Source: Candidatus Woesearchaeota archaeon
Lineage (GTDB): Archaea; Nanobdellota; Nanobdellia; Woesearchaeales; JAGVZT01
DNA length: 47,707 nt
Assembly: GCA_018302335.1 (NCBI GenBank)
Contig: JAGVZT010000024.1
Coordinates: 1 to 47,707, forward strand
Direction: 5' to 3'
Below the pieces are notes generated by a model, which saw only the letters and a list, made by a program, of their open reading frames with translations, made no database searches and was not told where the DNA came from. Position 1 is the stretch's first letter, and the number at the start of each line of letters is the position of its first letter. Positions 10,582 through 21,452 of the stretch are shown here, piece by piece. The translations under genes and the position numbers were made by a program.

Positions 10582-10675
10582 GTCCACCCGGGAACGCTGC
10601 CTCTTTAAAAAGCTTTGCGGCCGGCCCGGCGAGCTTCGCAAAGGCTTATATAGCGAGAAACCGCGAGAAGCATCC

Positions 10676-10801
10676 ATGGCTCGCGGCAGGAAAGCCGAGA
10701 CGGAGACCCAACTGGTGGTCATCATCCTCTTCATCATCGCGGCCATTGTGCTGTTCTTCATCTTCACCAAGAGCATCCTCCCAAAGCTGGTGCTGGAATG
10801 A
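10676..10801 (+). CDS. small single-TM protein, class III-signal-like N-terminus
   Basis: MARGRKAETETQLVVIILFIIAAIVLFFIF; TATA-like cttatatag about 10644; first gene of + operon; ATGA overlap with the next gene. Confidence 0.75.
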   Translation: MARGRKAETETQLVVIILFIIAAIVLFFIFTKSILPKLVLE

Positions 10802-11484
10802 GCAAGAGAGGGTATGAGCTGGTTTCCAGCGCGTTCGGCGGAGTCATCCTCGCCATCATTGTGGGAGTGGTGATTCTCATGCTGGTCGGGGTGATGATAC
10901 GGGTCTTCGGCGGCGCAGCCTCGGCGGAGAGCTGCCGGAGAAGCATCGCGTTCACGGACACCACCCACCGAAACATCCTGCTCGCGGACAAATTCTATCT
11001 GGAGTGCGACCCGGTGTATCGCACGGTCTCCCTGCCGGAGCAGGTCGCCACCGCACCGGAGGTCGCGAAGAAGGAGCTTGCGGACAACATGGTGAGCTGC
11101 TGGAACGTCGTTTCCCAGGGTGAGTTCAATCCCTTCGGGAGGCAGATTCCCCAGATTCCCAACTCAAAGACCTGCCTCATCTGCTCGGTGGTCAGCTTTG
11201 ACAAGGTGTTCCAGGAGAACCTCCCAGGCGTGACCGGGATGCATACCTTTCTCCAGACCAGCTACGTCACCGTGGACGGAAAGGACATGCTTTACAAGGA
11301 TGCCCTGCCTGACGGCTGGAACGACATCCAGGTCGTGAGCGATGTGATAGACACCACGGAGTCCTACGCGATTTACTGGGCGAAGACCTTCAACTCGTTA
11401 GGCCTCGCGTCGTCAGCTCCCACCCGGGTGTACCTGAGTCAATACCGCAGGCTTCTCAGCGTATGTGATACCGTGGTGAACTGA
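10798..11484 (+). CDS. membrane-anchored pilin-like/surface protein
   Basis: MSKRGYELVSSAFGGVILAIIVGVVILMLVGV N-terminus, conserved Cys in ectodomain; overlaps the next gene. Confidence 0.75.
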   Translation: MSKRGYELVSSAFGGVILAIIVGVVILMLVGVMIRVFGGAASAESCRRSIAFTDTTHRNILLADKFYLECDPVYRTVSLPEQVATAPEVAKKELADNMVSCWNVVSQGEFNPFGRQIPQIPNSKTCLICSVVSFDKVFQENLPGVTGMHTFLQTSYVTVDGKDMLYKDALPDGWNDIQVVSDVIDTTESYAIYWAKTFNSLGLASSAPTRVYLSQYRRLLSVCDTVVN

Positions 11485-12431
11485 TGCGGCGCGGATCCTG
11501 GGCAAGTACGACTGTTCTGGGGAGCTTCGTGCTCGCGCTCCTGGTGCTCACGGTACTCGGTTTTGTGGTGACAAACATCCTCAGCGGAGGCGGCGAGGGG
11601 GTGGACAAGCAGGCCTGCAGCCAGAGCGTCCGGATGAGCAGCCAACTGAAGATTGGCGTAGGAACGGACCTGCAGAAATGGCTTGTGAACCGCTACGGCA
11701 GCACGGCGAGGCTGGAGTGCGCCACTGAGTACCTGAGCGTGAAGGAAACGGAACCGGAGGCGCTGCAGGCGACCATCGCTGATTCCATGGTGGACTGCTG
11801 GCAGATGTTCGGCGAGGGCAACCTTGAGCTGTTCGACACCAAGGACGCGAGCTTCTGCGCGGTGTGCTCGCGGCTGGAGTTCGAGCAGCCTACGGCCCTG
11901 CCGGGATTCACGCGATACCTGATGGCCCACAATCCCCCCGGAAAGGACGTCTCCTACTTTGAGTACTTCAAAGGCGTCGGCAGGAGATGCGGAGGAAGGA
12001 TGCTCTCAGACGAGGATAGTCAGTCCCTCTACGAGCAGAGCGGGCTTGACCAGCTAGACACCATCAATACCGCGAATCCCCTTGCGGTCATCTACTACAC
12101 CCGGAAGAACGCGTATCCGGATGGATTCCTCGGCCTCAACTCCGGTGAGGTGGAGACATCCTTCTACGGCACCGCAGCCGGAGTGACGCTGGCCTTCGCA
12201 GGACTTGCCCTTTGCGCGACGGTCGCGGGCTGCTCCGTCGGCGGACCGATGATAGGCATCGCGCTAGTCGGTGCGGGTATCACAGGAGGGGCCCTCGGCT
12301 ACGGCATGGGCGCCGCGTGTACCTCCGACTATGACGCCTACATCGTGCTCTGGGACTACTCCAAGCTCGCCGACCTGGACTGCACCTATCTGGAAAGCGA
12401 ATCTACCCCACTCGTCATCAAGGAGGTCTGA
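11484..12431 (+). CDS. membrane-anchored pilin-like/surface protein
   Basis: MRRGSWASTTVLGSFVLALLVLTVLGFVV N-terminus; ectodomain resembles the preceding protein (DCWQMFGEGNLELFD...CAVCSRLEF vs SCWNVVSQGEFNPFG...CLICSVVSF). Confidence 0.75.
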   Translation: MRRGSWASTTVLGSFVLALLVLTVLGFVVTNILSGGGEGVDKQACSQSVRMSSQLKIGVGTDLQKWLVNRYGSTARLECATEYLSVKETEPEALQATIADSMVDCWQMFGEGNLELFDTKDASFCAVCSRLEFEQPTALPGFTRYLMAHNPPGKDVSYFEYFKGVGRRCGGRMLSDEDSQSLYEQSGLDQLDTINTANPLAVIYYTRKNAYPDGFLGLNSGEVETSFYGTAAGVTLAFAGLALCATVAGCSVGGPMIGIALVGAGITGGALGYGMGAACTSDYDAYIVLWDYSKLADLDCTYLESESTPLVIKEV

Positions 12432-12473
12432 ATGATTGCTTCCGTGTGCGCATCGCGGACCACAAACAGAAAG

Positions 12474-12540
12474 CGGCCACAAGACGTAGAATATCCGGCA
12501 TGCCGGCGGGACAACGCGAGACGGCATCCCGGCCGGGAGG
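12474..12540 (+). repeat. intergenic palindromic element copy 4
   Basis: gcggccacaagacgtagaatatccggcatgccggcgggacaacgcgagacggcatcccggccgggag. Confidence 0.8.
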
Positions 12541-12601
12541 CACAGGATATCCGCATGGTCGGGGAGGAAACTATTTATACGGAAGTTCCCGGGGAGAGCG
12601 C

Positions 12602-12754
12602 ATGAGGCGCGGCACCATCCAATGGGACACCATCGTTATCTGGGTCCTGCTGCTGCTCGGGCTGCTCATCCTCCTTGCAGTCATCGCAGTTTCCAGGGAG
12701 AAGATGCTCGCCCTGGTGCAGAAAATCGCCGAGGCGCTGAGGTTCGGGGCATGA
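12602..12754 (+). CDS. very small single-TM pilin-like protein
   Basis: MRRGTIQWDTIVIWVLLLLGLLILLAVIAVSREKM...; TATA-like ctatttatacgg upstream; ATGA overlap with the next gene. Confidence 0.75.
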   Translation: MRRGTIQWDTIVIWVLLLLGLLILLAVIAVSREKMLALVQKIAEALRFGA

Positions 12755-13965
12755 GACGAGGCAGCATCGCCGTAGAGCAGTTCGTCGCGGTGGGCATCGC
12801 CCTCACCGTCATCGTCGTCATCCTGCTCGGAGCGGCGACGAAAATCTGGCCTGGCTTCATGCAGTTCCTTGGCGTCGCAGGCCTGGACAACGAGACCGGG
12901 ACTGGCTCACTCATCGCGCGGGCGTGGACGGACTTCGACGAGAGCGGACAGCTCCAGTTCCACTTGGTAGAGGGCTCAGGTATCACCAGGGCGCGGGCGC
13001 AGGACACCTTTGGTGTCTACGAACTGTTCGACGCGGACCCGTTTGTCCAGCCCCTGTGCCAGCTGGAGCAGCTGCAGACCATGTCACCTCGGATGTTTCC
13101 CCAGGGCGCTGGCGGTGGCACGTTCGACATTGACTGGACCCTCACCCAGAGCCCGGGAGCCTTCGGCACGCGCTGGCTGTGCATCCGGGTCTACGATGAC
13201 AACGCTGCCGACCTCCAGAATCCGCCGTTGCTGGTGCGCATCAACTCCTGGCAGTTCCTGCTCAACACGTATCTGAACACCCCCATGTTCCTGCTGAACA
13301 GTCCATTTATTTCCGCCCCTCAGGGCTCAGCAATCCGCTGGTCCCTGGCAATGCATCGGAATCCCCCGGGGGCGTTCTGGGACAACTATCCGAGCGACCA
13401 GAGCTTGCTGCTCAGCGACGCGGAGTGGCGGGAGGTCCATGATTTCCTCGGACTGGCCACCTCGGGCATCCCAAACACCATCCCCGATATCCCGGCACTG
13501 ACGAGCGGGACGTTCAAGGATTTTCTCAACAAGCTCCCTTGCGCGTCCCCCGACCTGAACTCGGGTGCCACTGGAGTGAAGAAGCGCGCGCTTCAGACCG
13601 TGGTCACCGCACTCTTCGGCGACATCCAGGATTTTGAGTCCGCCAGTGGACGGCCTGCCACGCCCGGCCAGCCGGTTCCCCGCCTGCGTGACGGGACGGG
13701 CCCGCGGGGATGGCAGTCCGGCGCCTATGCCAACCAGCTCTACCCCGTGGAGATAGGCGTCTGGTATCCGGAGATGGCAGTGGGAGGGAACCTTGCCTGG
13801 AACCCCGAGGCCATGGTAAGAGCTAGGACCAACGCTTGGATAGGGGATGACGCGTTTTACGGCAAGCCGTACAGCGCACAGATGGATTTTCCGGGCACGG
13901 GATGTCTTGCCGGCAAGACGATGACTATCTACCTGCGCGCCTGCACTGCCTGCGGAGGAGGATGA
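12751..13965 (+). CDS. membrane-anchored large pilin-like/surface protein
   Basis: MRRGSIAVEQFVAVGIALTVIVVILLGAA N-terminus (Glu at +5 after G); C-terminus CxxCGGG. Confidence 0.75.
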   Translation: MRRGSIAVEQFVAVGIALTVIVVILLGAATKIWPGFMQFLGVAGLDNETGTGSLIARAWTDFDESGQLQFHLVEGSGITRARAQDTFGVYELFDADPFVQPLCQLEQLQTMSPRMFPQGAGGGTFDIDWTLTQSPGAFGTRWLCIRVYDDNAADLQNPPLLVRINSWQFLLNTYLNTPMFLLNSPFISAPQGSAIRWSLAMHRNPPGAFWDNYPSDQSLLLSDAEWREVHDFLGLATSGIPNTIPDIPALTSGTFKDFLNKLPCASPDLNSGATGVKKRALQTVVTALFGDIQDFESASGRPATPGQPVPRLRDGTGPRGWQSGAYANQLYPVEIGVWYPEMAVGGNLAWNPEAMVRARTNAWIGDDAFYGKPYSAQMDFPGTGCLAGKTMTIYLRACTACGGG

Positions 13966-13967
13966 CC

Positions 13968-14240
13968 ATGAACAAGAGAGGAGCGGAGCTCACCCTGAAC
14001 ACCATCATCATCGCGGCGCTGGTGCTGCTGCTGCTGGTTGTCCTCGTCATGATTATCGTCGGCTTCTTCGGAGACACGGTGCCGCAGTTCGGCAACTTCG
14101 TGACGTGCCAGGGCCGCGGGGGACAGTGCTACCAACAATGCCAGGTGGGGGAGCAGAAACTCTGGCGCTTCGGCGGCTGCGGCGGCGAGGACTATCTGGG
14201 AGCGGACTACTGCTGCATCCCGCCCGAGAACCCTGCGTGA
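13968..14240 (+). CDS. small single-TM Cys-rich protein
   Basis: MNKRGAELTLNTIIIAALVLLLLVVLVMIIVGFF followed by a Cys-rich tail. Confidence 0.75.
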   Translation: MNKRGAELTLNTIIIAALVLLLLVVLVMIIVGFFGDTVPQFGNFVTCQGRGGQCYQQCQVGEQKLWRFGGCGGEDYLGADYCCIPPENPA

Positions 14241-14244
14241 GAGC

Positions 14245-15165
14245 ATGAACAAGAGAGGAGAGAAGGAGAGCCTGCGCACCATCATCTATCTGATAGCAGC
14301 AGGCATCATCATCGTCTTCCTCCTCGGGCTGATGGGGCGCTGGTTCTGGGGCATCTTCCGCCAGGAGCTGCCGCAGACCGAAGCCTATGTCCTGAAGAAC
14401 TTCGAGCGTCTGGCGGATGAGTCGCAGAGCATGCTGGACTATGGTGACTACAATGAAGTCAGGGTGCTGCCCTTCACCCTGAAGGCCGTCGGGGATGATG
14501 CGTTTTTTGCTCTGGTGGGCATCAATCCGGACTTGCCTGCGACCGAGGCGACGGGCTGCGACAGTGGCCGCTACGATGTTCCCTCGGCGTGCAGGAACAA
14601 GAACTGCCTCTGCCTCTGCACCAAGCAGGACTGCACCGACGCGAAACGCTGCATAACCTTCGAGGGGATTCGCGTGGCGAGCATCGACTCATCAACCTAC
14701 AGCTGGGGCCTCCCGCTGGACGTCCCGGACCCGCTGGGACTCCAGCAGCTGGAGCAGCTCGCGCTTCCCATCCAGTGCGACGGCGCCGGAGGTCCCAACA
14801 GCGGAGCCGACCGGGAGCAGATGAATCTCTATGTTGAGGAGTCGTATCTGAACGGCCAGCGCTATCTCATCATCTCCGAAGAGAACGACGGCACCCGGAG
14901 ACGGGAGTCGGTCATCCGCGGCACTCCCAATCCTGTGTGCACTCCTGCTGGGACCACGGGAACCGCCATGCAGAGCTGCGCATCGCTCAACTGCTGCGAC
15001 GACTGCCGCATGCAGGGGGTGCGCGCGGCGACGCCCCGCTGCTGCAATCCCGCAGGGAAAACGGGGGCCAACATGCAGAGCTGCGCGTCGCTCAACTGCT
15101 GCGACAGCTGCCGCGCAGTAGGCGGGGGACCAGGACCTCGCCCTCCGCAGTGCTATGTTCCCTAG
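14245..15165 (+). CDS. single-TM surface protein with Cys-rich C-terminal tandem repeat
   Basis: MNKRGEKESLRTIIYLIAAGIIIVFLLGLM; two 35-aa units with AMQSCASLNCCDDC/NMQSCASLNCCDSC. Confidence 0.78.
   Translation: MNKRGEKESLRTIIYLIAAGIIIVFLLGLMGRWFWGIFRQELPQTEAYVLKNFERLADESQSMLDYGDYNEVRVLPFTLKAVGDDAFFALVGINPDLPATEATGCDSGRYDVPSACRNKNCLCLCTKQDCTDAKRCITFEGIRVASIDSSTYSWGLPLDVPDPLGLQQLEQLALPIQCDGAGGPNSGADREQMNLYVEESYLNGQRYLIISEENDGTRRRESVIRGTPNPVCTPAGTTGTAMQSCASLNCCDDCRMQGVRAATPRCCNPAGKTGANMQSCASLNCCDSCRAVGGGPGPRPPQCYVP
14938..15145 (+). repeat. 105-bp (35-codon) tandem duplication within CDS 14245-15165
   Basis: CTPAGTTGTAMQSCASLNCCDDC.../CNPAGKTGANMQSCASLNCCDSC...; unit starts at 14938 and 15043. 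Confidence 0.85.
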
Positions 15166-16550
15166 ATAGGTACGGGTCCAGGGGGTGGAGGCGGTGGCAC
15201 GGCAGGCGGCGGGACGTAGATGATGGTAAAACCATCGGAATCCCCGGCACTCACGTGGCCCGCGTAGTCTACAGCGGTCACCGTGGCACGGTAATTGCCC
15301 GGAGACAGGCCATCGAAGGTCTCGCCTGTCCCGCCGGTGCTGCTCGCCGGGCCCGGATTGATGTCGACGCGATAGTACCTGACGTCCTCAGCGGGATTAC
15401 GGTCCCAGGTCACTTCCACCGTCCCGTCGTCGACCTGCTCTGCACGGACCCCTGTCACCGCCGGGGGAGGAACCTTGTCCACGAGGCGGACCGCGAAGCG
15501 GTACTTCACCGAGCGGATGTCGATGCCGCCGTCACCGATGGGCAACTCGGTGCTGCTCGTAGCGCAGAATTCGTAGGTGCCGACGCCAAACAGCGGAGTG
15601 AGGAGCGGCAAGGTGAAGCGATGGGTGCAGTTGCCGTACACGAGCGTCACGCCCTGGTCTTCGAGCGCTTCATAGCTCGGCATGTCGCGCAGCGGCCTCG
15701 CGCAGTGACTCACTCCCAACTCGTCCTCCTGGCAGAGCGCGAGCTCGCGGACAAAGGCCTGCAGCAACTCGTATTCCCCTATGTCGTAGTCCACTTCCGC
15801 AGCCCACGAAGGGTCAGCCGCATAGGAATGGGGCGGGAGCTCCAGCCGAGGGCCCGGTGGGCCACCCGGGCCGCCTCCCCCGCCGCCTGGCTGCACCGTG
15901 ATGCTGCCCGGGTCCGGGGGTGGGTCCGTGAAGGTAACTGCGCTACCGGGGTTGTAGCCGACGGAGTCCGCGGCGCAGCGTCCCGAGGACGCCATCCCCT
16001 CGGGACTCAGCACGGGAGGGATGTCCAGGCAGGCGTACTGCCAGGGGTCCAACCGACGCCCGTCCTTGAGGATTTCCAGGTGAAGATGGCATGCGGTGGA
16101 CATCCCTTTGGTGCCGACATGGGCTATGACCTCGCCGTGGCCGACTGCCGCGGTCTGCACTCCCTCGAAGGGCCGGAGCGCGAAGTCCTCCATGTGTAAG
16201 TAGCGCGACACCCACCCGCTGCCGTGGTCAATCTCCACCACGGACGCTCCGGACCATCCGGGCCGGGTCTCCCAGAAGGTTGCGACACCTGGCGCGATGG
16301 CGCGGATGGGGTCACCACAGCGGCCGTTCCATATGTCCATCCCGCCATGGCTCTGGTAGTCAGGCGCGCGGAAGCACCACGTCACCACGAATCCGGCGCT
16401 CACTTCGACCGGGCAGGGGAAACTCTGGGAGGAGGTTGCCATCCCGGTCAGCGCGGTCAGTGGAGCAGCATAGGAATCCATCGCGCTGAACGCCCCCATG
16501 GCGGCCGAGAGCCACATGAGTACCGCGATGACAAGGATTGTGCGGCTCAT
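15162..16550 (-). CDS. secreted M23/LytM-like peptidase-domain protein with FN3-like C-terminal region
   Basis: Signal-like N-terminus; HGGMDIWNGRCGDPIRAIAPGVA...HLHLEILKDGR (M23 HxxxD and HxH); FN3-like PPPAVTGVRAEQVDDGTVEVTWDRNPAEDVRYYRVD. Confidence 0.85.
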   Translation of the reverse strand: MSRTILVIAVLMWLSAAMGAFSAMDSYAAPLTALTGMATSSQSFPCPVEVSAGFVVTWCFRAPDYQSHGGMDIWNGRCGDPIRAIAPGVATFWETRPGWSGASVVEIDHGSGWVSRYLHMEDFALRPFEGVQTAAVGHGEVIAHVGTKGMSTACHLHLEILKDGRRLDPWQYACLDIPPVLSPEGMASSGRCAADSVGYNPGSAVTFTDPPPDPGSITVQPGGGGGGPGGPPGPRLELPPHSYAADPSWAAEVDYDIGEYELLQAFVRELALCQEDELGVSHCARPLRDMPSYEALEDQGVTLVYGNCTHRFTLPLLTPLFGVGTYEFCATSSTELPIGDGGIDIRSVKYRFAVRLVDKVPPPAVTGVRAEQVDDGTVEVTWDRNPAEDVRYYRVDINPGPASSTGGTGETFDGLSPGNYRATVTAVDYAGHVSAGDSDGFTIIYVPPPAVPPPPPPGPVPI

Positions 16551-17488
16551 CTTCGCCTCCGCAGCGCGAACGCTGCGATGCCCACCAGAAGGAGTACCTC
16601 CGCGATGATAGGCCAGGGAAGAGAATGCTTCTGCTGTGGCTCAGCGTCTGGTTCTTCCGCCCTAGGGATATGATAATAGGGTGAGAACGGCTGGCAGGGA
16701 GCCTGGCAGCAGTCCGTCATCTCCTCGGCGAAGAGCACCTTGCCCAGGCAGACCTCTTCTCCGAGTGCGCAGGGGTTCCCGCCGAGGGCGCGGCAGCGCT
16801 CTTTAGGAGGTATGAGACAGTGTCCCTGGACACAGCACTTGGCGCCGGAATCGTCCGCGTACTGGAATGGCCTGGGGACGAAGCCGCCTTCCTCGCTGCA
16901 CATGATATCTGGAGGGCATATCTCCCCGCGCAGGTCCTTCCCGCACAGGGTGCGGTTCAGCGTGGTCGTCCGAGTGAGGCAAGTCCTGCAGTCCGCGCAG
17001 TCCGACTCAGCTCCCTGGCAGTCCGGGTCGCACACCCCGTCAGGGCGGAGGTCGCAGTAGTCATCGGCTGCCCCGCTCGCGCAGTCCGCGCAGGTGAGCG
17101 CATTCTCCAGGAGGACGCATCGTTCCCCCGAGCAGGGCTCGCATTGCCGGTCGTTGTCGCAGAAGGATATCGGAAGCGAGAGGAGCCGCTGATTCCCCCG
17201 GTAGATATCCACCTGCCTGATCTCCGGCGAGAACGGCACCCAGTTCAGCACGTTGGGATACGCGACCTCTGCTGCGAACGTTCTTCCCCCAGCGTCGATG
17301 AGCCACCAGCTGTAGTCGCTCTGTCCCTGGGGCAGCGGTTTGAACGAGGGAGCATAGTATGCAGTGTCCTCCATGACCCGCAGGCTGAGATTGGAGCCAT
17401 CCGCGTTGAAGCTCAGGGTGAGGAATGGCGACGGCTCGAACGCGAGCGCCAGCGGGAGCGCGACGAGGAGGGCGAGCAGCAGCTTCAT
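16547..17488 (-). CDS. secreted/membrane Cys-rich protein with C-terminal TM
   Basis: MKLLLALLVALPLALAF signal peptide; many CxxC; C-terminal WPIIAEVLLLVGIAAFALRRRR anchor. Confidence 0.75.
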   Translation of the reverse strand: MKLLLALLVALPLALAFEPSPFLTLSFNADGSNLSLRVMEDTAYYAPSFKPLPQGQSDYSWWLIDAGGRTFAAEVAYPNVLNWVPFSPEIRQVDIYRGNQRLLSLPISFCDNDRQCEPCSGERCVLLENALTCADCASGAADDYCDLRPDGVCDPDCQGAESDCADCRTCLTRTTTLNRTLCGKDLRGEICPPDIMCSEEGGFVPRPFQYADDSGAKCCVQGHCLIPPKERCRALGGNPCALGEEVCLGKVLFAEEMTDCCQAPCQPFSPYYHIPRAEEPDAEPQQKHSLPWPIIAEVLLLVGIAAFALRRRR

Positions 17489-18165
17489 GAGATAGCACCT
17501 CCTATTGGAGGGGAAGAGCCAGAGGACCCAGCAGCGTCCGGCTCGCCGGCGCTTCCCGGGGGACAGTCCCCGCTATAAGATGTCGGGGACATGCCGGCCC
17601 AGTCGAGCTCGCGGACGCATAATCCGGCAGAGGGCCAGCCCGGGATGAGGGTAACGCCGCTGGTGGAAAGGTCCTGCGCGAGGAAATTTGACGCTGTCGC
17701 ATACACCAGGAGGTCGCCGCCCTCGACCGCGTAGGTGAAGCCCGGTTTCGGGAACCCGGCGTCATCGAACGCTCCATCGAGCGCCTCATCGAGCCGGCTC
17801 GCGAGACCGTAGCGGTAGTCCGGAGCGCAGCTGGTGTCACCGCTCTGGCTGCCGACGAGCCAGAGGGGGGTGCCGTTGAGCGTGATGCCGCACGGAGAAT
17901 CCTCAAGGGTCTGCGAGGTGAAGCCGCCGTTCCACGCGAGGAGCAGCGACGCGCGCTCCGCGGCATACTCCCCCGCGAAATCTAGGAAGAGGCGGAACTC
18001 CTCAAGGTCGTGGTAGGAATGGTAGAGCCCGAACTCCCTGTCGCCGAGCTGCCGGTTCTGGGAGACACGGTTTTCCTTCAGCACGAGGAAAACAAACAGC
18101 GCGCTGAGCGTGATGGTCGCGATGAGCACCACGAGCCAGTTGAACACCACTCCCTTCCGGTTCAT
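17485..18165 (-). CDS. membrane-anchored pilin-like protein
   Basis: MNRKGVVFNWLVVLIATITLSALFVFLVLKENR; ATGA overlaps on both sides. Confidence 0.75.
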   Translation of the reverse strand: MNRKGVVFNWLVVLIATITLSALFVFLVLKENRVSQNRQLGDREFGLYHSYHDLEEFRLFLDFAGEYAAERASLLLAWNGGFTSQTLEDSPCGITLNGTPLWLVGSQSGDTSCAPDYRYGLASRLDEALDGAFDDAGFPKPGFTYAVEGGDLLVYATASNFLAQDLSTSGVTLIPGWPSAGLCVRELDWAGMSPTSYSGDCPPGSAGEPDAAGSSGSSPPIGGAIS

Positions 18166-18737
18166 TGCTGACGCTCCGTGCACATCTGTATAGCCACATT
18201 CGCGACCTGGTCCCCGCGGTCGGGGTCGTACAGCAGCGGGATTTTGATGGAGGCGCTCTGGAACTGCAACGGTCCAGTGTATATAGCGGCCTGGCCGCGC
18301 TGGCCACCCCTACTCCCGCAACTCTGCAGTGGATTACCCCGATTGAGGGCAATACGGCCATAGCGGGCGGTAATCTGCACCGCCCATGGCAGGTCGTCAG
18401 GATTCTCCTCAGGGTCCGATGCAACGAGATAGCCGTCCATCATACTCTCGATGGCTGCGCGGAGCTCCTGCTGGCGCGGCTCGTACTCATTCCGGGCGAT
18501 GACCTCGCCAACGCTGAGGCTGGAGCCGTCGGAGAACTGAACCGGAGCGCGCATCAGCGCCAAGAGGAGGAGCCTGCCCTCTATGGTGGTGTCCACCTCG
18601 CCCTGGACAGTGTACTCGCTCGGGCCGGAGCAGCCCCTGCTTATCGAGAAGAGCAGCACGAAGAGCACGAAGACAAAGATGTAGAAGAGGTAGGAGAAGA
18701 CGTCAACCAGCGCCGTGGGGACCTGGCCTCTGTCCAT
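18162..18737 (-). CDS. membrane-anchored pilin-like protein
   Basis: MDRGQVPTALVDVFSYLFYIFVFVLFVLLFSIS. Confidence 0.75.
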   Translation of the reverse strand: MDRGQVPTALVDVFSYLFYIFVFVLFVLLFSISRGCSGPSEYTVQGEVDTTIEGRLLLLALMRAPVQFSDGSSLSVGEVIARNEYEPRQQELRAAIESMMDGYLVASDPEENPDDLPWAVQITARYGRIALNRGNPLQSCGSRGGQRGQAAIYTGPLQFQSASIKIPLLYDPDRGDQVANVAIQMCTERQQ

Positions 18738-18738
18738 G

Positions 18739-19242
18739 TCAGTTTGGCATGATGGCGAGCACGTCCATCACTGCCGGAATCACCTCGCCGTTGTCGCGAT
18801 AGAGCACGGGCCTGCGCATCTGCCGCCCTCCTGCGCCGCCGGGACCCTGCCTATTGAGTCTCGGGAGCCAGGCGCGTATCCCCGGCTCGTTGAAGGTCGC
18901 CTCCTTGAGCGGCGTGCCGTCAAGCTCGGTGAGCGAGATTTTCATCGCAAGGAAGTCATTCCGCTCACCGTACCGGATGCAGGAGTCTAGCTGCAGGGTG
19001 TTGACTTTCCTGCTGTCCACCACTCCCGGATATGCGCGCTGGAGCCGGTCATCGTAGTAGGCGAGACACGCCGGCGAATACAGCAGCCTGTTGGCCTGCA
19101 GCTCCATCTCGGTCGCACGGACATCCGTGCGGAAGCTCATGTAATACCGCACGAGGAAGAGGATGGAGAGGATGACAAAGATGGCGAAGAAGAACTGCGG
19201 TATCTTCATCAGGACGAAGAAGGCGATGTTCCCGCGCTTCAT
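18739..19242 (-). CDS. membrane-anchored pilin-like protein
   Basis: MKRGNIAFFVLMKIPQFFFAIFVILSILFLVRYYMSFRTD; start overlaps stop of the next upstream gene (TGATG). Confidence 0.75.
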   Translation of the reverse strand: MKRGNIAFFVLMKIPQFFFAIFVILSILFLVRYYMSFRTDVRATEMELQANRLLYSPACLAYYDDRLQRAYPGVVDSRKVNTLQLDSCIRYGERNDFLAMKISLTELDGTPLKEATFNEPGIRAWLPRLNRQGPGGAGGRQMRRPVLYRDNGEVIPAVMDVLAIMPN

Positions 19243-20267
19243 CCCGGCACCCCCAGCGAGGCGCAGGTGCCCTGGAAGCCCTGCTCGTAGGTCCGGACGC
19301 CTTCCACATAGGCCTGCACCGCCGCGGTGACCTCGGGGGTGTGATACGGCGCAGGGCTGGACAGCGCTGCCGAGCATCCCCACCCGTTATAGCCACGCAG
19401 CCCGATGTCATAACCGGTATACATGACATCCTTCATGATGCTGCCGCTGCAGCCATCACTGTCACAGAGGCAAGCAGACCAGGAGTCGGTCGGCCTCTTG
19501 CGGCAGCAGTACCTCCGACCGGCGCCGCTGGCGCATCCCGGGGAGATGAGGCACTTGTTGCGGAAGATTTGGATGCCGCATTCGACGTTGTCCGTCCACG
19601 ACGCGAGCGGTTCGAGCACCCTGCCGTCCATCAGGGAGCGCTCGTCGCAGGCAGTGTTCGTCACCTGGAACACCCCGACGCCGCCGTCTCCGCTCAGAGC
19701 GTCGATACTCAGCCCGCTCTCCTTCTGGGCAAGGGCAAGCATGAGGTCTCCCGGAACATTGTAGAGCGGCGCGACCATGCAGATGTACTGCATGACCCCG
19801 GTGACATTGGCAGGGAGGAGCACAGGCCTTCCTGCGCCGCTGAACGCCGGATTCGCGTTGGGGTCGTCAGTCACGATGACCTTGCGGGCGCGCTCGATGA
19901 ACACCACGTCATCGGGGTGCGTAAGCTCTTCTTCCGCCGGACCCTCTCCGGCATCGGCGAACCAGTACTCCTTGCTCAGGGTATCACGCTCCTCGCGGAC
20001 CTTGACGCGGTTCTCCTCGAACGCGACGATGAAATCCGAGGCGTCGCCGTCGTACACGTACTTCACGCTGTCCGGAGAGGCGTAGACCGTGTCGAGGAGC
20101 AGCGCGAATTCCCGCGCGAGGTAGTTCTTCTCCAGGATGGTGCTCGTCCGCACCTCGTGGACCAGCATGAGCATGGTGGTGAAGAGCAGCGCGATGAGCC
20201 CAAGCTCGATGATCCAGGAGAGAGTGTCCTCCTCCGCCCCGCGCTTGTCCTTCAGAAGGCTCCTCAC
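19239..20267 (-). CDS. membrane-anchored lytic transglycosylase-like (SLT fold) protein
   Basis: GTG start at 20267 (MRSLLKDKRGAEEDTLSWIIELGLIALLF); SLT-like ALAQKESGLSIDALSGDGGVGVFQV, NVECGIQIF, RGYNGWG; TATA-like catttaaaag about 20290-20299 (minus strand). Confidence 0.85.
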   Translation of the reverse strand: MRSLLKDKRGAEEDTLSWIIELGLIALLFTTMLMLVHEVRTSTILEKNYLAREFALLLDTVYASPDSVKYVYDGDASDFIVAFEENRVKVREERDTLSKEYWFADAGEGPAEEELTHPDDVVFIERARKVIVTDDPNANPAFSGAGRPVLLPANVTGVMQYICMVAPLYNVPGDLMLALAQKESGLSIDALSGDGGVGVFQVTNTACDERSLMDGRVLEPLASWTDNVECGIQIFRNKCLISPGCASGAGRRYCCRKRPTDSWSACLCDSDGCSGSIMKDVMYTGYDIGLRGYNGWGCSAALSSPAPYHTPEVTAAVQAYVEGVRTYEQGFQGTCASLGVPG

Positions 20268-20335
20268 TGCGGCTCTCTCGGGCGCTGCGCCTTTTAAATG
20301 CTTTGCCCCGGAGCATAGCGGAAATCGAGAACAGG

Positions 20336-20471: not shown

Positions 20472-21452
20472 GTGCACATCCCCTACGACCGCATTCTCGA
20501 GACCATCACCGAGAAGACCGCCATGGAACGGGAGCAGCTGGAGCAGCGCATCGAGGCGAAGCTCAAGCAGCTCTCGGGGCTCATCAGCAGGGAGGGCGCC
20601 GCGCATATCGTCGCGAACGAGCTCGGCGTCAAGCTCGTGGACCAGGTCAGCGGCAAGCTCAAGATAGGGAACATCCTCGGTGGGATGCGTGACGTCGAGA
20701 CCGAGGGGAAAGTCCTCCGCGTCTTCGAGACGCGCACCTTCCAGTCCGAGCGCGGCGGGGGCCAGGTCGCCTCCTTTGTCATCGGCGACGAGAGCGGCAG
20801 CGTCCGCGTGGTGCTCTGGAATGACCAGGCAGTCCGCATCAAGGAACTGGCGCCGGGCATGGCCGCGCGCATCGTCGGAGGCTACACCCGTGACCGCAAC
20901 GAGCAGGTCGAGGTGCACCTCAACGACCGGAGCAAGCTCATCATCAACCCCGAAGGGGCGCAGGTGGACGCAAGGCCGCTGTACGAGCGGAAGAAGATTC
21001 GCGACCTCACCGAGCACGACCAGCAGGCGGAAATCCTCGCCACCATCTACCAGGTGTACGAGCCCAGGTTCTTCGAGACCTGCCCGCAGTGCGGCAGGCG
21101 GGTGCGGCAGCAGGACGCGGGATTCCAGTGCGAGACGCACGGTGCGGTGCAGCCAGAGTACTCCTATGTCATCAACCTCTTCCTTGATGACGGTTCTGGC
21201 ACCATGCGCCTGGTGTGCTTCCGGGAGCAGGCCCTGCGCATCCTCGGCAAGGCCCACGAGGAGTTCCTCTCCTACCGCACCGCGCCGGAGAGCTTCGACC
21301 AGGTGAAGAACGACCTCGTCGGGCAGATTGTCAAGGTCGTCGGCCGCATCACCAGGAACGAGCTCTTCGACAGGTTGGAGATGGTGGCCCAGCTCGTCTA
21401 TCCCAATCCGGACCCGAAAGAGGAGCTCGAGCGTCTGGAGCGCATGCAGTAG
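20472..21452 (+). CDS. RPA-like OB-fold single-stranded DNA-binding protein
   Basis: VASFVIGDESGSVRVVLWND OB-fold; zinc motif CPQCGRRVRQQDAGFQCETHG; TATA-like atttttataac upstream. Confidence 0.9.
   Translation: MHIPYDRILETITEKTAMEREQLEQRIEAKLKQLSGLISREGAAHIVANELGVKLVDQVSGKLKIGNILGGMRDVETEGKVLRVFETRTFQSERGGGQVASFVIGDESGSVRVVLWNDQAVRIKELAPGMAARIVGGYTRDRNEQVEVHLNDRSKLIINPEGAQVDARPLYERKKIRDLTEHDQQAEILATIYQVYEPRFFETCPQCGRRVRQQDAGFQCETHGAVQPEYSYVINLFLDDGSGTMRLVCFREQALRILGKAHEEFLSYRTAPESFDQVKNDLVGQIVKVVGRITRNELFDRLEMVAQLVYPNPDPKEELERLERMQ

Follow-up and report, generated by a model that had tools for sequence, protein, structure and literature searches.

A conserved gene cluster of Woesearchaeales encodes single-span membrane subunits with exchangeable murein hydrolase domains and is probably part of a type-IV-filament-related apparatus directed at bacteria

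Archaeal type IV pili, the archaellum and Aap-type filaments have in common a secretion ATPase, a TadC-like platform, N-termini of the prepilin-peptidase type and many small subunits with a single transmembrane (TM) segment. In its excerpted text, a census of archaeal pili lists nanoarchaeal ATPases for which no cognate pilins could be identified (PMC4858521). Archaeal murein hydrolases have been shown to kill bacteria, with Nanoarchaeota as prominent carriers (excerpted text of PMC12352652), and the large lytic transglycosylases that Woesearchaeota and Pacearchaeota encode have been proposed to bind or degrade bacterial walls and have been read as hints of bacterial hosts or prey (excerpts of PMC8204110 and PMC9723730). 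Here, we analyzed a cluster of 13 closely spaced genes at positions 10676-20267 of contig JAGVZT010000024.1 from a Candidatus Woesearchaeota archaeon (assembly GCA_018302335.1; the whole stretch of 47,707 nucleotides is called the window for simplicity). The cluster probably encodes the extracellular subunits of a dedicated apparatus, related to type IV filaments and belonging to Nanoarchaeota (order Woesearchaeales and relatives), which would display murein hydrolases against bacteria.

The system has a secretion ATPase and many small single-TM subunits in common with the archaeal filaments, and its putative platform and its N-termini resemble theirs, but it differs from them in several respects: no known pilin family was matched, murein hydrolase domains are fused to subunits, the platform is a fused double-TadC-like protein without a match to Pfam T2SSF, and three proteins with five TM segments (5-TM proteins) occur as partners. 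The bacterial Tad/Flp pilus is similar in that CpaF is among the closest solved ATPases and in the two TadC-like halves of the platform, whereas the subunit set is a different one and TadZ was not seen; as a candidate it was rejected, as no Flp-type pilin, TadE/F or secretin Pfam family was found among the cluster proteins. The type II secretion system (T2SS) with the minor pseudopilins GspH-K likewise has consecutive minor subunits, the last of them large, and a GspE-type ATPase, but here a secretin is neither expected nor found, the enzymes are fused to subunits and no fold match was obtained. The archaeal secreted peptidoglycan hydrolases are comparable in that archaea lacking murein, with Nanoarchaeota richly represented, possess murein hydrolases; the excerpted text presents them as modular and soluble and describes no machine or gene cluster (PMC12352652). 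The excerpts on woesearchaeal and pacearchaeal transglycosylases deal with single protein families and connect them neither with a conserved pilus-like locus nor with swapping of hydrolase classes (PMC8204110, PMC9723730). Evolved VgrG proteins of the type VI secretion system (T6SS) and phage tail lysozymes also combine a delivery part with exchangeable C-terminal wall enzymes, whereas the subunits described here are anchored by a single TM segment; the cluster proteins scanned in the window and in relatives include no component of a sheath, tube or baseplate and no VgrG, bar one VgrG3-like enzyme domain in a relative, and a T6SS or another contractile injection system was rejected on these grounds. 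No description of the cluster was found in openly licensed papers (preprints being outside the scope), and to our knowledge the system is undescribed. A previous annotation made from the DNA letters of the window alone (called the sequence-only reading) had proposed an undescribed machine; this holds, with the amendment that the system is not without kin. By its genomic context and ATPase, and more tentatively by its platform and signal, it is probably a variant of the type IV filament superfamily, and the combination with exchangeable murein hydrolases is novel.

Seven of the genes (g1-g7, 10676-15165) are on the forward strand and six (g8-g13, 15162-20267) on the reverse strand, and the junctions are mostly ATGA/TGATG overlaps of 1-4 base pairs (bp), with the exception of g3 and g4, which are separated by 170 bp. 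The N-termini of 11 of the 13 proteins consist of a basic run ending in G (MARG, MSKRG, MRRG in three, MNKRG in two, MNRKG, MDRG, MKRG and KDKRG), which is followed by a single TM segment. The other two are g8, a Sec-type secreted M23 peptidase, and g9, a cysteine-rich protein with a C-terminal TM segment. Apart from the g3/g4 gap, the overlap lengths and the MARG start, this is the inventory given by the sequence-only reading, including its lytic-transglycosylase-like and M23-like enzymes.

Related loci were collected using as bait the RPA/OB-fold gene downstream of the cluster (20472-21452, forward strand), a conserved syntenic landmark outside the machine, and were therefore picked without reference to the cluster itself. 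The relatives of this gene that carry names are nearly all Candidatus Woesearchaeota. Full-length iterative profiles drifted on the common TM segment and raised the family counts; they were dropped, ectodomain-only profiles were used instead and the family tally was redone with named loci only, excluding duplicate genomes. Among the 51 named loci with at least 4.5 kilobases (kb) upstream of RPA, 48 contain three or all four of the core families (g13, g12, g11 and g10 or its fused form), and in 47 the order g13, g12, g11, fused protein is kept on the RPA strand. When duplicates are included, 63 of 66 RPA loci carry the cluster. In a sample of 377 genomes of the phylum, 286 are matched by the g12 profile, among them genomes outside Woesearchaeales, and the synteny, far from being unique to this assembly, extends over the order and reaches the class. 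As the ectodomain families keep to one order in 47 of the 51 loci, which were collected independently, the cluster is not a chance arrangement, and we regard the locus as almost certainly a conserved functional unit. The usual complete order is g1, g2, g3, g4, g5, g6 (1-5 copies), g7, g13, g12, g11, fused protein, RPA. In the window and in one relative (L126) the half comprising g13, g12, g11 and the fused protein is inverted. The convergent two-operon layout pointed out earlier is thus present in the window, but because 47 loci keep the fixed order on one strand it is a derived local inversion and not the norm.

The putative wall-cutting enzymes of the window are g13 and g8. The g13 protein (342 amino acids (aa), 19239-20267, reverse strand) starts with KDKRG and comprises a long helix, a beta-sheet domain and then an SLT domain scoring just above the cut-off (PF01464, 23.0 bits versus 21.3), in which the motif KESGLS...GGVGVFQV contains the catalytic-type Glu and the GxxGxxQ pattern of SLT. 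The g8 protein (462 aa, 15162-16550, reverse strand) is matched by Pfam M23 (PF01551, 7.2e-17), contains all usual zinc-ligand motifs (HGGMD, YLHM and CHLHLE, with the HxxxD and HxH ligands of M23) and has in addition an fn3-like region. Both proteins of the window thus have intact catalytic motifs, as do several relatives.

Domain matches in the relatives revealed that the C-terminal domains of two slots interchange among peptidoglycan hydrolase classes. In the first slot, nine of 52 g13 relatives carry Amidase_3 (best 4.4e-19) in place of the SLT domain of the window, and many others end after the first domain (130-160 aa forms). The second slot is occupied in relatives by a hydrolase-fused protein. 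Window g10 (226 aa, MNRKG start and carrier domain, 17485-18165, reverse strand) aligns to the N-terminal part of this protein and window g8 aligns behind a g10-like N-terminus in proteins of L043, L049 and L136, from which it follows that the window carries the fused protein split in two. Pfam domains assigned to the 81 relatives of g10, g8 and the fused protein (overlapping categories) were SLT in 13 (best 1.1e-29), M15 in seven, VanY in six, and Amidase_2 (1.5e-28), M23 (5e-26) and NlpC/P60 in three each, together with a few phage-type lysozymes and the VgrG3-like C-terminal lysozyme domain (2.4e-32). In L086 and L097 the SLT domain starts immediately behind the carrier domain. A set of 80 related genomes has about 86 SLT places in total, and 12 of these places are within ~4 kb of g12 or g13 while about 0.7-1 would be expected (places matched by hand; binomial p 1e-9 to 1e-11). 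Enzymes that do not act on murein are present in a few of the fused proteins (Exo_endo_phos, 1.3e-20; DUF218; Metallophos), and the carrier domain might be able to present other effectors as well. A second SLT protein of the same genome is encoded on contig C66 (L157:8410-10194) and has an RRG plus TM start (MVRRGQLSIMLILGVVLL...); its N-terminus resembles that of the KKGQITFFLILG proteins which L139 and L140 encode upstream of the cluster.

Another feature of the locus is the variability of the g5 slot. In the window, g5 (404 aa, 12751-13965, forward strand) has an MRRG start, a TM segment and a large ectodomain; in relatives the protein in this slot can be as short as about 200 aa or as long as 1139 aa, with no homology to be recognised, and Pfam scans of the slot yielded no credible match. 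Such a hypervariable, adhesin-like protein, the many g13 relatives without a hydrolase domain and the absence of the usual His residues from some Amidase_3-like tails of g13 relatives in the alignment would fit a type-IV-like pilus for adhesion or DNA uptake by which the archaeon attaches to a host, archaeal or bacterial, with hydrolase domains serving mainly for wall binding and many of them inactive. We consider this explanation unlikely, since the catalytic motifs mentioned above are intact and binding alone hardly explains repeated swaps among unrelated folds which have only their murein substrate in common.

The signal at the N-terminus was compared with that of multi-TM control proteins. 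Of the 288 family members in the named loci, 208 (72%) have G or A directly after the KK/KR motif and 34 more have S there, versus 4 of 22 controls (18%) with G or A (Fisher p about 7e-7). The signal in the wider family is thus K or R followed by G or A, and also by S, and by this comparison the N-terminus common to the cluster families is specific. Outside the enzymatic domains, the cluster proteins matched no Pfam or NCBIfam family, and a gene-for-gene correspondence to a described pilus was not found among the subunits. Such a correspondence and a synteny confined to this assembly were the two outcomes that would have spoken against the sequence-only reading, and both checks thus turned out in its favor. 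AlphaFold was used to model g13 and g10. For g13, the alignment consisted of 52 homologues with SLT present only in the window row, and the SLT part was poorly modelled; the N-terminal domain is predicted as a long, slightly broken helix (residues 11-63) followed by seven strands up to residue 133, with a pLDDT (predicted local distance difference test) of about 84-98. The g10 model shows helices at 3-34 and 40-78 and then a small sheet with an inserted helix. Both predicted models seem to follow the general plan of type IV pilins.

No ATPase was found in the window, and the sequence-only reading was right that both an ATPase and a TadC-like platform are missing from it; this is now to be amended, as both adjoin the cluster in class relatives and are present on other contigs of this genome. 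In two class relatives of different families (G127/L151 and G141/L152) ATPase, platform, cluster and RPA are contiguous on the same strand, with a T2SSE-type ATPase of 761-770 aa and a multi-TM protein of 707-727 aa immediately ahead of the cluster. Coordinate comparison in G183, G345, G259 and G155 placed platform and g12 on one strand at a distance of ~4-9 kb, and overall a linkage of platform or ATPase to the cluster was seen in four families. The genome analyzed here has an ATPase orthologue on contig C1 and a platform orthologue on contig C47 (50% identity). The ATPase scores above the cut-off of Pfam T2SSE and its nearest solved structures are archaeal GspE (2oap, 5e-28), CpaF (3e-22) and FlaI. 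The platform, which had no match in Pfam T2SSF, is a conserved protein of 711-760 aa composed of two repeats of 2TM-loop-2TM (fused double-TadC-like); 78 of 80 relatives and 369 of 377 phylum genomes have it. The prepilin peptidase (PF01478, A24), which was to be sought elsewhere in the genome according to the sequence-only reading, was indeed located on contig C70 (C70:49100-49447, E 4.7e-12) and is found in 76 of 80 relatives.

In most Woesearchaeales, ATPase and platform form a separate module that also includes the three 5-TM proteins and a pair of small soluble proteins; a HerA-like ATPase (DUF87, 1.5e-7) joins it in some genomes but not consistently. The 5-TM proteins (DVVLPFLLIF motif) accompany the ATPase in L058 (own contig C1), L164, L167, L170 and L173, and those tested were matched well by no family. 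Near the far end of the extended locus, G005 (L149:4765-5796) and G061 (L150:7493-8557) encode another, diverged peptidase of the A24 type (called as 343-354 aa). A diverged second platform (~30% identity) adjoins a conserved ATPase and short KG-type single-TM proteins in L166 and L169 (G005 and G065), possibly representing a paralogous system. The genome analyzed here contains in addition a separate, ordinary-looking type IV pilus locus on contig C9 (L057:6392-12206), which encodes a T2SSE ATPase and two T2SSF proteins along with several small proteins resembling pilins.

These components bear on two further explanations. Four subunits encoded in a row, the last of them large, recall the GspH-I-J-K order and g8 of this genome is a free enzyme, as would be the case if the single-TM proteins were pseudopilins of a T2SS-like system that exports separately secreted hydrolases, together with other exoproteins, for public digestion; this is improbable, given that most relatives fuse the enzyme to a TM-anchored subunit, so that it is displayed and not released, and that neither GspK nor another pseudopilin was matched in fold. 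We give equally little credence to a non-filament envelope complex resembling conjugation machineries or type IV secretion systems, in which the ATPase and the 5-TM proteins would make up a channel and the single-TM proteins would be structural. The three conserved 5-TM proteins, the occasional HerA-like ATPase and one subunit family with a glycine-rich hydrophobic hairpin would suit such a complex, but an ATPase of the GspE/CpaF/FlaI group together with a TadC-like partner is a filament pairing, and HerA is not consistently present.

The likely target of the enzymes was addressed through the genes for murein synthesis. FtsW/RodA was found in none of the 80 related genomes and a penicillin-binding protein transpeptidase in two (78 being without it), with bacterial controls positive in both searches. 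Without their own murein synthesis genes, murein of the archaea themselves is an unlikely target. Bacterial murein is the one substrate that these enzymes of unrelated fold share, and the target is therefore most likely another cell, a bacterial one. The earlier suggestion that the cluster acts on the walls of partner cells is strengthened by the hydrolase swapping and by the absence of these synthesis genes. Remodelling of the archaeon's own envelope, with enzymes cutting its wall or an S-layer-linked polymer for passage of an appendage, as lytic transglycosylases and M23 proteins such as VirB1/FlgJ do in bacterial secretion systems, is very improbable in view of these counts and of the M15/VanY, Amidase_2/3 and lysozyme-type domains, which require murein-type bonds.

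In the type-IV-filament-related apparatus that we favor with moderate confidence, the K/R-G/A single-TM subunits would insert into the membrane, be trimmed by the prepilin peptidase encoded elsewhere and be assembled by the CpaF/GspE-like ATPase and the fused double-TadC-like platform, likewise encoded elsewhere, with the three small 5-TM proteins as putative accessory parts. A tip- or base-like complex presenting the murein hydrolases may be formed by g13, g12 (167 aa, MKRG single-TM subunit with a YPGxxD..K motif, 18739-19242, reverse strand), g11 (191 aa, MDRG single-TM subunit, 18162-18737, reverse strand) and g10; here the enzymes would be the lytic transglycosylase of g13 and the secreted M23 peptidase g8, the split form of g10 plus g8. 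Upon contact with a bacterium these enzymes would open or grip the peptidoglycan, by which the archaeon might attach, feed, kill or deliver something.

Several results weigh against this interpretation. In most Woesearchaeales, including the genome analyzed here, ATPase and platform are apart from the cluster, and in the two linked class relatives (L151 and L152) g13 and the fused proteins are short and a hydrolase was not demonstrated. Many other g13 and fused relatives also lack a recognised hydrolase, meaning that the enzyme is not obligatory. The similarity between platform and TadC is modest (hhalign, E 4.8e-5, probability 68%). The likeness to class III (prepilin) signals drawn by the sequence-only reading finds some support in the frequency of G or A, but under the strict FlaFind-type rule (judged by eye) only two of the 11 window signals fit, those of g10 and g11, and the hydrophobic segments begin several residues past the G. 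Foldseek searches of the g13 model against the PDB and of the g10 model against the PDB and viral structures returned no significant match, and the subunits are for this reason not filed as type IV pilins.

A more far-reaching proposal, which we put forward tentatively and rate somewhat below an even chance, is a class-wide contact-dependent anti-bacterial machine: a filament-like structure with a tip complex made of a constant carrier and an exchangeable murein-cutting warhead, for predation or epibiosis on bacteria. By analogy, and with the same reservation, such a machine might be constructed from pilin-like parts and yet correspond in function to T6SS VgrG or to the lysozymes of phage tails. 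Earlier hints of bacterial partners came from isolated lytic transglycosylases, to which no machinery had been assigned (PMC8204110, PMC9723730). The locus offers a defined, testable machine with a conserved gene order, an identified ATPase and platform and enzymes that have bacterial murein as their predicted substrate. If our interpretation is correct, bacteria would be partners or prey of a large archaeal group, the cluster may provide the missing subunits for orphan nanoarchaeal secretion ATPases, and its genes would be markers for cross-domain contact.

The remaining genes of the window cluster are as follows. On the forward strand, g1 (41 aa, 10676-10801) and g4 (50 aa, 12602-12754) are single-TM mini-subunits with MARG and MRRG starts, respectively, whose positions are taken in relatives by small proteins with an N-terminal TM segment (34-43 aa for g1) and in most relatives by a protein of ~50 aa (g4). 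The proteins g2 (228 aa, MSKRG, 10798-11484, forward strand) and g3 (315 aa, MRRG, 11484-12431, forward strand) have a TM segment and a cysteine-containing ectodomain, to which g3 adds the glycine-rich hydrophobic hairpin; they belong to one family with four invariant cysteines. Further downstream on the same strand, g6 (90 aa, MNKRG, 13968-14240) combines a TM segment with a 6-Cys knot-like domain and g7 (306 aa, MNKRG, 14245-15165) with a cysteine-rich ectodomain. On the reverse strand, the cysteine-rich g9 (313 aa, 16547-17488) has a signal peptide in addition to its C-terminal TM segment and is homologous to the protein that comes next after the fused protein in relatives. Candidate TATA-like elements are found ~25-30 bp ahead of g1 (about 10645-10652 within 10640-10660, forward strand, ggcttatatagcg) and ~25-30 bp ahead of the GTG start of g13 (about 20291-20300, reverse strand); they would fit two leaderless archaeal transcripts.

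One of the loci (L066) is from a record labelled Candidatus Aminicenantes bacterium, of which a contig carries a woesearchaeal RPA gene and the cluster, probably due to a binning error of the assembly. Giant cysteine-rich secreted proteins of 1872, 3346 and 2466 aa are encoded upstream of the cluster in L139, L140 and L142, respectively; the two that were scanned contain CarboxypepD_reg and bacterial Ig-like domains and are candidate adhesins of the same apparatus.

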